Below are positions 1 to 24,312 of a stretch of DNA of 64,000 bases, piece by piece. Each line of letters opens with the position of its first letter. Within the stretch, counting starts at the first letter, position 1. The notes under the pieces were generated by a model. That model was not told the DNA's origin and made no database searches. It saw only the letters and a list, made by a program, of their open reading frames with translations. The stretch comes from Pedobacter sp. WC2423 (lineage in GTDB: Bacteria; Bacteroidota; Bacteroidia; Sphingobacteriales; Sphingobacteriaceae), in assembly GCF_040822065.1 (NCBI RefSeq), contig NZ_CP162005.1, positions 4,030,001 to 4,094,000 on the forward strand, read 5' to 3'. The translations under genes and the position numbers were made by a program.

Positions 1-465
1 TGAAATCAGCTGATGCAGGAATTTCTTTGGATACTCTCCCTTAAATATTGCTATGGCGGTATTTAGTTCTCCGTCAAATTCCATATTCAGGCGCTCCATC
101 ATCAGGATAGAGATATCTTCATGCTGAATGCCTTTAACCAGTGAATATTCCAGGGCATGAGAAAATGGCCCATGACCGATATCATGGAGTAATATAGCTA
201 TGGTTGCACCTTCTTCTTCATCTTTAGTAATCTCGTGGCCCTTACTGCGTAAGATATCAATAGCCAGGCACATCAGGTGCATTGCACCAAGCGCGTGGTG
301 AAAACGCGTATGCAAAGCTCCCGGATATACCAGGTGCGTCATCCCCAATTGTTTAATGTAGCGTAGCCGCTGAAAAAAGGGATGCGAGATCAGGTCAAAG
401 ATCAATTCTGAGGGTATATTGATAAATCCATATACCGGGTCATTTATTATTTTCTTTTTATTCAA
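1..465 (-). CDS. HD-domain phosphohydrolase (3' part missing)
   Basis: This is the N-terminal ~155 residues of an HD-superfamily phosphohydrolase; the rest lies beyond the left edge. The HD signature is LLHDIGHGPFSH, preceded by a histidine-rich stretch HTRFHHALGAMHL. Such metal-dependent enzymes act on nucleotides or other phosphoesters, and the substrate here is unknown. I place the start at a TTG at 465 because the product then begins MNKKKIINDPVYGF. Another TTG lies 9 nt upstream (474), and an in-frame stop precedes both. A near-consensus -7 box (TTATTTTG, one mismatch) covers 472-479, only 6 nt before the chosen start. The gene diverges from porX. Confidence 0.85.
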   Translation of the reverse strand, partial: MNKKKIINDPVYGFINIPSELIFDLISHPFFQRLRYIKQLGMTHLVYPGALHTRFHHALGAMHLMCLAIDILRSKGHEITKDEEEGATIAILLHDIGHGPFSHALEYSLVKGIQHEDISILMMERLNMEFDGELNTAIAIFKGEYPKKFLHQLIS

Positions 466-569
466 TCTTGGCAAAATAAATTATACGGTACAAAAATTGC
501 TATTTTTATCCGTACTTAAGAAAGAGATAGCTCTTTTTAAGGATTTATTTACACCTTATATATACAATA

Positions 570-2123
570 ATGCAGGAAACCAAGATTCTATGGGCCGATG
601 ATGAGATAAACTTATTAAAACCGCATATATTACTATTAAACGAAAAAGGGTACCATGTGACTACATTTACAAATGGAAACGATGCATTGGAGGCTTTTGG
701 TAAGGAGCATTTCGACCTGGTATTTCTGGATGAAAATATGCCAGGCATGAGTGGACTGGAAACCCTGTCTGCCATTAAAAATATAAAAAGTGACATTCCG
801 GTTGTACTGATTACTAAAAGTGAAGAGGAAAACCTGATGGAGGATGCGATCGGTTCAAAAATTGACGATTATCTGATAAAACCGGTTAATCCTAAGCAAG
901 TATTGCTGACGATCAAAAAAATCATAGACAATAAAAGACTGATCAGTGCCAAAACTTCAATGGCATATCAACAAGATTTCAGACGTTTAGGCATGACACT
1001 GAATGACAAATTAAGTTATGAAGAATGGACAGAGGTTTATAAAAAACTTATTTTCTGGGAACTGGAGCTTGAAAAGTTAGATGATCCTCAGATGCATGAA
1101 ATTCTGACCATGCAAAAATCTGAAGCGAATACGCAATTCTCTAAATTCATTGAAGACAATTACATTGACTGGGTAAATAAAAGAGGTAAAACGCCTTTAT
1201 TGTCTAATGAGCTGCTTAAAAAGAAAGCATTTCCGCATATCAATTCTACTACTCCGGTATTTTTTATCCTGATTGATAACCTGAGATATGATCAATGGAA
1301 GATTATCAATCCTTTAATCACAGAACATTTCAGATTAGACGAGGAAGATATTTATACGAGTATCCTGCCAACAGCGACACAATATGCAAGGAACTCTATC
1401 TTTTCAGGGCTGATGCCTCTTGAAATGGAGAAACGTTTCCCTTCACTTTGGCAAAATGATGATGAAGAAGGTGGTAAAAACATGCATGAAGAAGCTTTTC
1501 TTGCAGATCAGATTAAACGCAGCGTACGTAAAGACTGTAAATTCAGCTATCATAAAATTCTGACTTATGATGATGGAAAAGCACTTAACGAGCAAATGAA
1601 CAACCTGATGCAAAATGAATTCAATGCAATCGTTTACAACTTTGTCGATATGCTTTCTCATGCCCGTACAGACATGGCGATGATCAGAGAACTGGCCAAT
1701 GACGATGCAGCTTACCGCTCATTGACACTTTCCTGGTTTGAGCACTCTCCTTTATTGGAGCTGTTAAAGAAACTTGCGCAGAAACAGGTTAAAGTAATTA
1801 TTACTACAGATCACGGTACCATCAGGGTAAAACATCCAAGTAAAGTAATCGGAGATAGAAATACCAATACAAATCTGCGCTATAAACAGGGCAGAAATCT
1901 GAATTTTAATGCAAAAGAGGTGTTTTTGATTAAAAATCCTCATGAGGCGCAATTACCTAAAATAAATATCAGTTCTAATTATATTTTCGCCAAAGAAGAC
2001 CGTTATTTTGTTTATCAGAACAACTACAACCAGTTTGTGAACTATTATAATGAAACGTTCCAGCATGGTGGGATCTCTCTGGAAGAAATGATGATTCCTG
2101 TAGCGACTTACAGCTCAAGATAG
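570..2123 (+). CDS. porX: PorX: response regulator with PglZ/alkaline-phosphatase-fold effector
   Basis: The 517-residue protein has an N-terminal receiver domain: acidic pair D10-D11, phospho-acceptor D54 in FLDENMPG, T82 and K104 in DYLIKP. After a helical linker comes a C-terminal PglZ domain of the alkaline phosphatase superfamily, with likely metal-binding motifs IDNLRYDQW (about residue 233) and TTDHG. This architecture is that of PorX, which in Porphyromonas gingivalis works with the kinase PorY and sigma factor SigP to control type IX secretion, and which has phosphodiesterase activity. No porY or T9SS structural gene is in the window. tsaE follows 9 nt downstream, so the two are probably cotranscribed. 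The identification rests on domain order and length. Confidence 0.92.
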   Translation: MQETKILWADDEINLLKPHILLLNEKGYHVTTFTNGNDALEAFGKEHFDLVFLDENMPGMSGLETLSAIKNIKSDIPVVLITKSEEENLMEDAIGSKIDDYLIKPVNPKQVLLTIKKIIDNKRLISAKTSMAYQQDFRRLGMTLNDKLSYEEWTEVYKKLIFWELELEKLDDPQMHEILTMQKSEANTQFSKFIEDNYIDWVNKRGKTPLLSNELLKKKAFPHINSTTPVFFILIDNLRYDQWKIINPLITEHFRLDEEDIYTSILPTATQYARNSIFSGLMPLEMEKRFPSLWQNDDEEGGKNMHEEAFLADQIKRSVRKDCKFSYHKILTYDDGKALNEQMNNLMQNEFNAIVYNFVDMLSHARTDMAMIRELANDDAAYRSLTLSWFEHSPLLELLKKLAQKQVKVIITTDHGTIRVKHPSKVIGDRNTNTNLRYKQGRNLNFNAKEVFLIKNPHEAQLPKINISSNYIFAKEDRYFVYQNNYNQFVNYYNETFQHGGISLEEMMIPVATYSSR

Positions 2124-15131: not shown

Positions 15132-17006
15132 TTGAGCACATTAATTGCAGCAGAAAATTTAGGCCATGCCTATAATGATGAATGGTTATTCAAAAATTTA
15201 ACCTTAGGCATCCAGACTGGTCAGCGCGTCGCGTTGGTTGGAATCAACGGAGCTGGTAAAAGCACCCTATTAAAATTATTGGCCGAGCGGTTTACTCCGC
15301 TGGAAGGGAAAATAGTAAAAAATAAATTCGTTAAGATTGGCTTCCTTGATCAGGAACCCTCCTTCCCTGATGGATATTCTATCAGTGATTTTATTTTTTC
15401 TACAGACAATAAGCAGCAACAGTTAATCAAGGAATATGAAGAACTGATTGAAGATCCAAATCCTGATGAGAAAAAACTTAACCGTTTATACGAAGAATTA
15501 AGTGAACACAATGCCTGGGAATATGAGCATGAAATCAAAACGATTTTAAGCCGTATGGGAATTAATCATCTGCAACAAAAAATCTCAACTTTATCTGGTG
15601 GTCAGAAAAAGCGTCTGGCTTTAGCCAAGCTTTTAATTGAAGATCCTGAGATTTATGTATTGGATGAGCCTACAAACCACCTGGACATCGATACTATTGA
15701 ATGGTTAGAAAAGTTACTGACTTCAGGAAATAAAACAATATTACTAGTAACACACGACAGGTATTTTCTGGATAATGTATGTAATACGATTGTAGAACTG
15801 GATAGAGGTAAGATTTATAATTACAATGGAAACTATGCTTATTTTCTGGAGAAAAAATCTGAACGCGAAGCTTCTGATGAGAGTACTTTCCAAAAGAACA
15901 AGAATCTCCTGAAGAAAGAATTGGAATGGATGCGCAGAATGCCTGCGGCAAGAACAACTAAATCTCAATCCAGAATAGATGCTTTTTATGATTTGGAAAG
16001 TAAAACCAAACAACGTTCTGATACAGGAAGTGTAACCTTAAGCATGAAGATGTCCCGTCAGGGAAATAAAATTCTGGAATTGGACCATATTGGTCAGTCT
16101 TTTGATGAGAAAAAAATAATCAATGATTTCAGTTATACATTTAAACGTGCAGATCGTATTGGTTTAGCCGGAAAAAATGGGACTGGAAAATCTACATTGT
16201 TAAATATTATTACAGGGTTTCAAATTCCGGAAAAAGGTAAGGTGAGCACTGGAGAAACTACAGTTTACGGCTATTATAAACAAGGTGGTTTAGCCTTTAA
16301 TGAAAAAGAAAGAGTTATAGATATTGTAAAATCTGATGCTGAATATATCAAGATGGCTGATGGTTCAATGATATCCGCTTCCCAATTATTAACACTATTC
16401 CTCTTCCCTCCCAAGAAGCAACATGGAATGGTAGAAAAGTTGAGCGGTGGGGAGAAAAAGCGTTTACACCTGATGAAGGTTTTAATGCAAAATCCAAACT
16501 TCCTGATCCTGGATGAGCCGACCAATGATTTAGATATTGATACGCTAAATGTATTAGAAGAGTTCCTGGAAAATTTCCCGGGCGTATTGATTCTTGTTTC
16601 TCACGACAGGTATCTATTAGACAAAATGAGTGAGCAATTATTCATTATGGAAGGTGAAGGTATTGTTAGTATCTACAATGGTAATTATTCTGAATATAGA
16701 ATTAGCCTGGATACACCTAAAGAAAAAACAGAAACAAAACCGAATAAAACCGAACAGAAAACTACTGCTATACCTGCCAATAAATTAACCTATAAAGAGC
16801 AGAAAGAGCTGGATGATTCAGAAGCTAAAATAGCTGAGATTGAAACTGAAATTGATAAACTAACTAATTCCCTGCTTTCTATTGATAGTACTAACTATAT
16901 GGAAATACAAGAAGTAACAAAAGCTATTGAAAAGCTTAATACTACTTTGGAACAGACCATGGAACGTTGGGTAGAGTTATCAGAAAAGACAAACAAAACG
17001 ACTTAA
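15132..17006 (+). CDS. ABC-F ATPase, Uup-like
   Basis: The 624-residue protein has two ABC cassettes and no membrane segment. Cassette 1 has Walker A GINGAGKSTLL, signature LSGGQKKRLALAK and Walker B LDEPTNHLD; cassette 2 has GKNGTGKSTLL, LSGGEKKRLHLMK and LDEPTNDLD. A linker joins them, and the C-terminal ~75 residues form a charged coiled coil typical of Uup. ABC-F proteins act on the ribosome or, for Uup, on branched DNA and ribosome assembly. The start is a TTG (MSTLIAAENLGHAY); no better ATG fits the conserved N-terminus. mnmG follows after the parS sites. Confidence 0.88.
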   Translation: MSTLIAAENLGHAYNDEWLFKNLTLGIQTGQRVALVGINGAGKSTLLKLLAERFTPLEGKIVKNKFVKIGFLDQEPSFPDGYSISDFIFSTDNKQQQLIKEYEELIEDPNPDEKKLNRLYEELSEHNAWEYEHEIKTILSRMGINHLQQKISTLSGGQKKRLALAKLLIEDPEIYVLDEPTNHLDIDTIEWLEKLLTSGNKTILLVTHDRYFLDNVCNTIVELDRGKIYNYNGNYAYFLEKKSEREASDESTFQKNKNLLKKELEWMRRMPAARTTKSQSRIDAFYDLESKTKQRSDTGSVTLSMKMSRQGNKILELDHIGQSFDEKKIINDFSYTFKRADRIGLAGKNGTGKSTLLNIITGFQIPEKGKVSTGETTVYGYYKQGGLAFNEKERVIDIVKSDAEYIKMADGSMISASQLLTLFLFPPKKQHGMVEKLSGGEKKRLHLMKVLMQNPNFLILDEPTNDLDIDTLNVLEEFLENFPGVLILVSHDRYLLDKMSEQLFIMEGEGIVSIYNGNYSEYRISLDTPKEKTETKPNKTEQKTTAIPANKLTYKEQKELDDSEAKIAEIETEIDKLTNSLLSIDSTNYMEIQEVTKAIEKLNTTLEQTMERWVELSEKTNKTT

Positions 17007-17090
17007 TTGAAGGAATAATAGCTTATTATAAGGCTTTTAAAGCATTAAGAAGGCTAAACAAGCCCCCGTTAAGCCAATACGAGAATTAAC

Positions 17091-17104
17091 GTTCCACGTG
17101 AAAC
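17091..17104. promoter_or_regulatory. Degenerate parS-like ParB site
   Basis: GTTCCACGTGAAAC differs at one base from the 14-bp parS core GTTTCACGTGAAAC. It lies 31 nt from a perfect parS, in the gap before mnmG. Confidence 0.6.
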
Positions 17105-17135
17105 GCCAGGCGCCAGAACAAGAAATTAAAGTCCT

Positions 17136-17151
17136 TGTTTCACGTGAAACA
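17136..17151. promoter_or_regulatory. parS: parS centromere-like site (ParB binding)
   Basis: TGTTTCACGTGAAACA is a perfect 16-bp palindrome identical to the classic bacterial parS consensus. ParB loads here and spreads to organise and segregate the replication origin region. It ends 14 nt before the mnmG (gidA) start, a gene often found near oriC in other bacteria. parA/parB and dnaA are not in the window. Confidence 0.9.
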
Positions 17152-17165
17152 TAAATACAAATAAG

Positions 17166-19028
17166 ATGTTTAAAGAATATGATGTGATTGTTGTGGGTGC
17201 CGGACACGCAGGTTGTGAAGCAGCAGCGGCAGCAGCAAACATGGGATCTTCCGTTTTATTAGTCACCATGAATATGGAGACAATTGCGCAAATGAGCTGC
17301 AACCCTGCTATGGGCGGTGTGGCAAAAGGACAAATTGTAAGAGAGATTGACGCCATGGGTGGTTACTCGGGAATTATCAGTGATAAGACCACTTTACAAT
17401 TTAGAATGCTCAATTTATCCAAGGGCCCTGCGATGTGGAGCCCTCGTGCACAGAACGACAGAAAACGATTTGCCGAAGAATGGAGACTTGCCTTAGAGCG
17501 TACCCCAAATGTAGATTTCTGGCAGGACATGGTGAGTAGTCTGATCATTGAAAACAATAAAGTAACAGGAGTTAAAACTTCCATTGGTGTAGAGATCAAA
17601 GCCAAAAGCGTGGTACTGACCAATGGTACTTTTCTGAATGGATTAATTCACATTGGAGAGAAGAAATTTGGTGGTGGCCGTACTGGTGAAAAAGCAGCTA
17701 CAGGAATTACAGAACAGTTGACTTCTATTGGATTCGAAGCTGGAAGAATGAAGACTGGTACTCCCCCACGCGTGGATGGAAGATCACTGAATTATTCGTT
17801 AATGGAAGAACAATGGGGCGACGAAAACCCAGGAAGATTCTCTTATACTCATGTAGAAAGACCAACAGAAAAAAGATGTTGCTGGATCACTTATACCAAT
17901 AGTAATGTGCACGAAACTTTAAAAGAAGGTTTTGAGAAATCACCCATGTTTACTGGTAGAATCAAAGGGCTTGGTCCAAGATACTGTCCATCTATTGAAG
18001 ATAAAATAAACAGATTTGCAGAAAGAGACAGACATCAGATTTTTGTAGAACCCGAAGGATGGAATACCTGTGAAATTTATGTGAATGGCTTTTCTACATC
18101 GTTGCCGGAAGATGTTCAGTACAGAGCTTTAATTCAAATTCCAGGATTTGAAAATGCAAAAATGTTCAGACCAGGTTATGCGATTGAATACGATTACTTC
18201 CCACCTACCCAGTTGTCATTAACCTTAGAAACGAAGTTAATTGAGAATCTGTATTTCGCCGGACAAATTAATGGAACTACCGGATATGAAGAAGCTGCAA
18301 GTCAGGGTTTCATTGCCGGGATTAATGCACACCTGAAAATAAATGAGAAAGCTCCATTGATTATGAAGCGTTCAGAATCTTATATTGGTGTATTAATTGA
18401 CGACCTGGTAACTAAAGGAACTGAAGAACCTTACCGTATGTTTACCTCCAGAGCTGAGCATAGATTATTGCTGCGTCAGGACAACGCAGATATCAGGCTC
18501 TCCCCTATTGGCCATGCTTTAGGATTAATCAGTGACGAACGTTTAGCGATTGTTCACCAGAAAATTTCAAACTCAGATAATATCGTTGCCTTTACACGCA
18601 AGCAAGGAATAGAAATGACTGAAGCTAACGATATGCTGGAAACTTTAGGTTCGACACCTTTAGCACAAAATGTTAAAATTGTAAGTGTACTGGGCAGACC
18701 TCAGGTTGGAATTAATGACCTTAGAAAAGTAAGTAAAAGTCTGGATGAATATCTTGCTCCTTTCGATCAGGAAACTATTGAACAAGCTGAGATCAAAGTA
18801 AAGTATGAAAGCTATTTTCTCAAAGAACAGGAGATCGTCAACAAAATGCAAAAGATGGAAGACAAAGATATCAACCCTGATTTTGATTATTCTTCTTTAG
18901 GATCGCTGTCAAAAGAGGCAAGAGAGAAATTATTGAAGATAAAACCACGTACTTTAGGACAAGCATCCAGAATTTCGGGAGTTTCTCCTTCAGACATTTC
19001 AGTTTTGATGGTGCATATTAGCAAATAA
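17166..19028 (+). CDS. mnmG: tRNA uridine-5-carboxymethylaminomethyl modification enzyme MnmG
   Basis: This full-length 620-residue MnmG (GidA) has the FAD-binding motif [17 protein letters not shown] at residues 9-25, conserved segments [12 protein letters not shown] and GTFLNG, and the C-terminal helical domain that binds MnmE. With MnmE it installs the cmnm5 group on the wobble uridine of certain tRNAs. The start ATG is fixed by the conserved [16 protein letters not shown]. The upstream gap carries two parS-like sites, and a long AT-rich hairpin begins at the stop codon. Confidence 0.97.
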
Positions 19029-19062
19029 TATATAATGTATTGATAATCAATACATTATATAT
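19028..19062 (+). terminator. 17-bp AT-rich hairpin right after mnmG
   Basis: The arms at 19028-19044 and 19046-19062 are perfectly complementary around a single central base. There is no T-run, so it could be a terminator, an mRNA 3'-end stabiliser, or a DNA dyad bound by protein or prone to cruciform extrusion. Confidence 0.5.
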
Positions 19063-22921: not shown

Positions 22922-23319
22922 TGAATTGTGCTAAATCCGCCTTATTGTTAACAACGTTAGAAATATGTTGATTACTTGTCTAAATAAATAGAGTAACTAT
23001 TTAAGAATGTTTAAAGCTAAGGTAAAATGAGAATTAGACACAATATTTTAAGTTATTTTTCAGCAACTTTGCATGAGTTATTAACTTTTTACTACCAACT
23101 AACTAATAAACATCTGAGTATGGATAAGTTTTTAATCTTAAAAATATCTAATTGTTAATCAGCGTATTTTTTGAAAAAAAAAGTGATTTATTTGTTGATA
23201 AGTATAGAACAAGTTATAAAAACGAATAAAAACAGGAGAGTTACAAACATTACTAACACACTAATAAACAATAGAAATCTATTTATATTAAATAATTATT
23301 AATTATTGAAACGTTGAAA
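22922..23319. other. nadB/nadA intergenic region (398 nt)
   Basis: This is a very AT-rich region between divergent NAD genes. A near-consensus -7 box for nadA, CAACTTTG (one mismatch), lies near 23063-23071 and would give a leader of about 240 nt. Two one-mismatch DnaA-box-like sequences occur in reverse orientation (at about 23119-23127 and 23194-23202). I see no stable riboswitch-like fold and no ORF. Confidence 0.4.
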
Positions 23320-24312
23320 ATGGATACCTTAGAAGAATTGAACAGAAGAGGATTTGTAGAAGAAAGTATCGACCCAACACTTGATCTTTTTGCGGAAATT
23401 GAAAAATTAAAAAAAGAGAAAAATGCGATAATCCTGGCACATTATTACCAAGAACCTGATATACAGGATGTTGCTGACTATATTGGGGACAGTTTAGGAC
23501 TTTCTCAGGAAGCGGCCAGAACTGAGGCAGATGTGATTGTTTTTGCAGGAGTGCATTTTATGGCAGAAACGGCAAAAATTCTCTCTCCGGAAAAAAAGGT
23601 TTTATTACCAGATTTAAAGGCAGGTTGCTCATTAGCAGATAGTTGTCCGCCACATTTGTTTAAAAAGTTTAAAGAGAAATACCCGGATCACCTGGTCATT
23701 ACCTACGTGAATTGTACGGCAGAGCTAAAAGCGATGAGTGATATCGTCTGTACCTCAACCAATGCGGTTCAAATTGTAGAAAGTCTGCCAAAAGAGCAGA
23801 AGATTATTTTTGGTCCGGATAAAAATCTGGGTGCCTGGGTGGCGAAAAAAACTGGCAGGGATCTGGTTTTGTGGAATGGTGCCTGTATGGTTCATGAAAT
23901 ATTTTCGAGAGAGAAAATAACCAAGTTAAAAGAGCGCCATCCGAATGCAAAATTTATTGCGCATCCGGAATGTGAGGAAGCTGTATTGCAGATGGCAGAT
24001 TATATCGGATCTACAACAGGATTGTTGAATTATTCCATCAAAAGTGATGCAAAAGAATTTATTGTAGCTACAGAAAGTGGTATAATTCACCAGATGGAAA
24101 AGGCAAATCCGGCAAAAACTTTTATTCCGGCGCCGCCGAATAATAATTGTGCTTGCAATGATTGCCCGTATATGAAGAGAAATACTTTGGAAAAATTGTA
24201 TCTGTGTTTAAAAAACGGATCGCCAGAAGTTACTGTGCCAGAGCATATTATCAGAGAGGCTAGAAAACCAATTGAAAGAATGCTGGAAATATCAGCAAGT
24301 CTTGGCTTATAG
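23320..24312 (+). CDS. nadA: Quinolinate synthase
   Basis: The 330-residue [4Fe-4S] enzyme condenses iminoaspartate with dihydroxyacetone phosphate to form quinolinate. Diagnostic segments are [48 protein letters not shown] and the C-terminal [17 protein letters not shown], which supply the cluster cysteines. I use the ATG at 23320 ([11 protein letters not shown]); a TTG lies two codons upstream. It is divergent from nadB. Confidence 0.95.

Follow-up and report, generated by a model that had tools for sequence, protein, structure and literature searches.

Chromosomal parS sites near oriC are textbook knowledge. In many bacteria other than the one described here, gidA/mnmG, gidB, parA and parB are grouped near oriC. 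Recruitment of SMC condensin by ParB at parS is common, not universal. The Noc binding site NBS, ATTTCCCGGGAAAT, is a related palindrome recognized by Noc, a paralogue of ParB. Its A at position 1 and C at position 6 are confirmed in PMC7383237, and an Arg/Gly or Gln/Arg residue pair in the protein decides whether parS or NBS is read (PMC7383237). A Hi-C study of gut bacteria, two Bacteroidota included, locates parS clusters at ori and finds no systematic agreement between ori and dnaA (PMC10197239). For Bacteroides caecimuris and Muribaculum intestinale, the study places ori by parS, skew and coverage, and describes both as lacking known condensins (PMC10197239).

The window, the whole stretch analyzed here, is 64,000 bp of Pedobacter sp. 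WC2423 (positions 4,030,001–4,094,000 of a single 5,978,383-bp contig). Upstream of mnmG it carries two copies of the 14–16-bp palindrome known as parS in Bacillus subtilis, Caulobacter crescentus, and Pseudomonas aeruginosa. As in those species, the copies are few and origin-adjacent.

Two palindromes upstream of mnmG

The features are as follows, in window coordinates unless stated otherwise.

15132–17006, + strand: ABC-F family ATPase, upstream neighbour of the palindrome pair, given for context only
17090–17105, no strand: parS-type site 1, CGTTCCACGTGAAACG; 14-mer core GTTCCACGTGAAAC at 17091–17104
17136–17151, no strand: parS-type site 2, perfect TGTTTCACGTGAAACA; 14-mer GTTTCACGTGAAAC at 17137–17150
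17166–19028, + strand: mnmG (gidA), TIGR00136 (823 bits) and PF01134
21335–22921, − strand: nadB, left flank of the candidate oriC
22922–23319, no strand: candidate oriC, the AT-rich divergent nadB–nadA spacer, 5.8 kb from the palindrome pair
23119–23127 and 23193–23201, − strand: DnaA-box-like sites in the spacer, conserved in relatives
23320–24312, + strand: nadA, PF02445 (431 bits), right flank of the candidate oriC
Genome coordinates 25–1419 (+), 459333–460727 (+) and 3057920–3059314 (−), outside the window: three dnaA copies

The pair matches the parS consensus palindrome (GTTNCACGTGNAAC / TGTTTCACGTGAAACA), and its members are spaced 46 bp start to start. Site 1 has one mismatch over the 14-mer GTTCCACGTGAAAC and three over the 16-mer CGTTCCACGTGAAACG. 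An earlier note, made from the window alone, had described a perfect parS at 17136–17151 with a one-mismatch copy upstream, the pair ending 14 nt ahead of mnmG. The sequence confirms this with mismatches counted over 14 bases: the perfect 16-mer of site 2 ends 14 nt before the ATG at 17166, and TIGR00136 identifies the gene. The note had also held a chance pair to be very unlikely, and the expectation is indeed ~0.01 sites per 64 kb (43 sequences with at most one mismatch, 4^14). A perfect 17-nt inverted repeat, possibly a terminator, lies directly after the mnmG stop codon (19028–19062).

The whole 5,978,383-bp chromosome was scanned for further copies, as the earlier note had proposed. Sites 1 and 2 are the only matches with at most one mismatch to GTTTCACGTGAAAC. 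The exact pattern GTTNCACGTGNAAC also finds these two alone, and the reversed control pattern finds none. Two mismatches add eight scattered sites; the resulting total of 10 is below the 14 found with the reversed control, so the eight were rejected as chance matches.

The genome has a single ParB-family match, at ~3.27 Mb and immediately preceded by parA; parAB lies 776 kb from the palindrome pair. The match has ParB_N, HTH_ParB, and ParB_C domains and the adjoining ParA is an ATPase, so a chromosomal-type ParB and ParA are encoded. In alignment with Noc, GKNRST and SMGHARAL of ParB face GKGQST and TERHARAL. The deciding pair is Arg/Gly in ParB (Arg173 and Gly201 in Caulobacter numbering) and Gln/Arg in Noc; the Arg/Gly pair, which reads parS, is common to WC2423 and textbook ParABS systems. 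The palindromes were ruled out as Noc binding sites: their position 1 is G and their position 6 is A, and the ParB pair is Arg/Gly, not Gln/Arg. No match above the TIGR02168 cut-off for SMC was found in the genome, where a divergent SMC may exist. With no SMC over the cut-off, another factor may perform the usual ParB–SMC step, or the step may be absent. A 1197-aa ORF near the origin matches SMC weakly but encodes a hybrid histidine kinase.

Origin domain and a candidate oriC

For cumulative GC skew, 100 samples of 20 kb at even spacing and a continuous 560 kb were used. The samples place the minimum at 4.03 Mb and the maximum at 1.33 Mb. In 1-kb steps, the minimum resolves to a flat stretch at 4.029–4.043 Mb, in the left part of the window. 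The palindrome pair is at 4.0471 Mb, so that both chromosomal sites lie 4–18 kb from the minimum, as few and as origin-clustered as the earlier note had expected. The + strand holds 64.5% of long-ORF length in the right replichore and 37.6% in the left, a switch of the coding strand. Third-codon-position skew turns ~5–23 kb into the window; from nadA on, it stays mostly positive for ~45 kb to the right. From the skew minimum, the coding-strand switch, and the third-position turn, the window belongs to the origin domain. Local skew places oriC no finer than ~20 kb.

The origin domain had been predicted for this window despite the absence of dnaA, parA, and parB from it, and both points stand. 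Besides the 776-kb distance to parAB, no dnaA is near: the three genes are full-length, all score above the family cut-off, and none is within ~0.9 Mb of the skew minimum. Among 25 genomes of the same genus that were searched, seven have three dnaA genes (WC2423 included), two have two, and the rest have one.

At 20% GC, the 150-bp stretches lowest in GC across the window fall in the nadB–nadA spacer. The density of DnaA boxes in Pedobacter-type loci is highest 5–6.5 kb from the mnmG start, partly from boxes inside nadB, to which codon conservation may contribute. The spacer is present in 70 of 72 loci, with 64 boxes at one mismatch or less vs 9.8 in shuffles. Its length is nearly constant within genera, and its conserved blocks are of the TGTTAA/TGTTGATAA type. 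The window copy has two DnaA boxes only, each with one mismatch, and lies 10–24 kb from the skew minimum. In WC2423 alone, DnaA boxes form no standout cluster across the 560 kb around the origin, and relatives were needed to reveal the nadB–nadA peak. An NAD-synthesis regulator could be an alternative reason for the conservation. Since the related sequences are non-independent and such a regulator is possible, oriC at the spacer is offered as a proposal, with the odds slightly in its favor.

Linkage to mnmG across Bacteroidota

The closest relatives of this mnmG are from Pedobacter species, at ~91% protein identity. Sites stand beside mnmG in 80 of 80 loci, mostly from Pedobacter and Mucilaginibacter, with one to five upstream sites each. 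These loci comprise 1.57 Mb, in which 176 of 177 sites lie no more than 500 bp upstream of mnmG. In 22 aligned upstream regions of the Pedobacter type, both boxes are invariant at defined positions and the flanking DNA is unalignable. The Mucilaginibacter form is mostly the symmetric GTTCCACGTGGAAC. Spacing between sites upstream of mnmG varies from 24 to 241 bp, and in Sphingobacteriaceae the nearest site is 20–101 nt ahead of the mnmG ATG (median 27).

The exact motif occurs in 93 of 99 sampled Bacteroidota genomes, usually twice. Positions were readable in 89 genomes; 84 of these have a site no more than 500 bp from mnmG, and 168 of their 208 sites are within that distance. Four further motif-bearing genomes stand outside this count; in one of them (G049), the sites directly adjoin mnmG. 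By side of mnmG, 26 genomes have upstream sites alone, 23 have downstream sites alone, and 35 have both. Five of the six genomes without the exact motif carry one-mismatch sites directly beside mnmG. Each of 24 Bacteroidota genomes tested has one ParB copy, and parB is hundreds of kilobases from mnmG in the complete genomes inspected by eye. Judged from sequence, the parS–mnmG linkage is phylum-wide and uncoupled from parAB and dnaA. No description of a link between parS and mnmG/gidA was found in the searchable literature; the main survey (Livny et al. 2007) was outside this search and may mention it. Phylum-wide linkage to mnmG is apparently undescribed.

Three genomes (G036, G063, and G090) have ParB and no recognizable site near mnmG, meaning that the site has shifted or changed there. 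Two genomes of family f5 have matches away from mnmG only, and in each of the two, threonine synthase contains at least one of them. GTTCCACGTGGAAC in these genomes resembled a parS distant from mnmG and was rejected as a false positive, since it lies at the GSTWNN codons of that gene. This match inside threonine synthase, near position 1501 in L248 and L249, is a source of false parS calls. Two genomes of family f16 have a pair spaced 46–50 bp between murQ and mfd, away from mnmG. Around position 1501 of L300 (f16), one palindrome coincides with the ATG assigned to the mfd frame (MFHVKH), so that mfd may in truth start further downstream.

A probable centromere beside mnmG and known systems

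Two unique and conserved sites, a nearby skew minimum, and a ParB with parS-reading residues argue for reading the palindromes as parS, the chromosomal centromere of a ParABS system near oriC, with a probability of about 0.93. ParB made from the distant parAB, 776 kb away, would load at both sites as a CTP-dependent clamp and spread across mnmG and its neighbours. ParA would then pull newly copied origin regions apart. The pair would sit a few kilobases from oriC, for which the nadB–nadA spacer, 5.8 kb rightward, is the probable location. The constant position of parS next to mnmG most likely survives from an ancient cluster of origin genes, preserved by the need for parS to remain close to oriC.

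The position just before a start codon also invites readings that center on mnmG. The palindromes might be operators at which a dimeric protein, ParB or another, controls mnmG transcription or translation, with no centromere involved. The short distance to the ATG in Sphingobacteriaceae fits such operators. Against them stand the near-equal numbers of downstream-only (23) and upstream-only (26) genomes beside the 35 with both, the f16 pair between murQ and mfd, the unfixed spacing (24–241 bp), and the motif itself, which has the ParB consensus sequence and is located at the skew minimum; this reading is very improbable. Perfect or near-perfect inverted repeats just 5′ of a start codon could also form RNA hairpins in the mnmG leader. 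Variants that place C opposite A at positions 4/11 (mnmG strand) occur in 15 of 176 upstream sites and in site 1, and many genomes have sites downstream of mnmG only. Because pairing-breaking variants are common, hairpins have hardly any likelihood.

A double role would keep the sites as true parS, with ParB segregating the origin and also damping or insulating mnmG, so as to tie tRNA modification to origin copy number. The persistence of parS beside one gene across the phylum, after parAB and dnaA have moved away, is what such a role would explain. The varying side on which the sites lie, together with the f16 exception, points instead to selection on origin nearness only, and the double role is considered unlikely. 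More generally, it is doubtful that the Bacteroidota centromere is held by mnmG for a second ParB function, such as a link between mnmG and origin copy number or segregation. The earlier note had suggested that ParB loading might influence mnmG expression. The 26/23/35 split of sides and the f16 pair away from mnmG lend this no support, and mnmG regulation is unlikely to be the conserved function of the sites. The origin-proximal centromere is the preferred reading. As parS has stayed at the origin though parAB and dnaA have moved, the reason for its linkage to mnmG is directly testable.

In this large phylum, dnaA is a poor guide to the origin region, and mnmG flanked by parS offers a simple landmark for it. 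The landmark bears on metagenome growth-rate estimates and on genome rotation; the WC2423 record begins at a dnaA ~1.9 Mb from the origin.

WC2423 differs from most textbook ParABS systems in that parAB is 776 kb off parS and no dnaA is nearby. It differs also in having two sites only, 46 bp apart, beside mnmG. The lack of an SMC over the cut-off parallels the lack of known condensins in Bacteroides caecimuris and Muribaculum intestinale (PMC10197239). The passages on these origins leave mnmG unmentioned; to that picture of parS at ori, the present analysis adds a conserved gene neighbourhood and proposes an oriC candidate.
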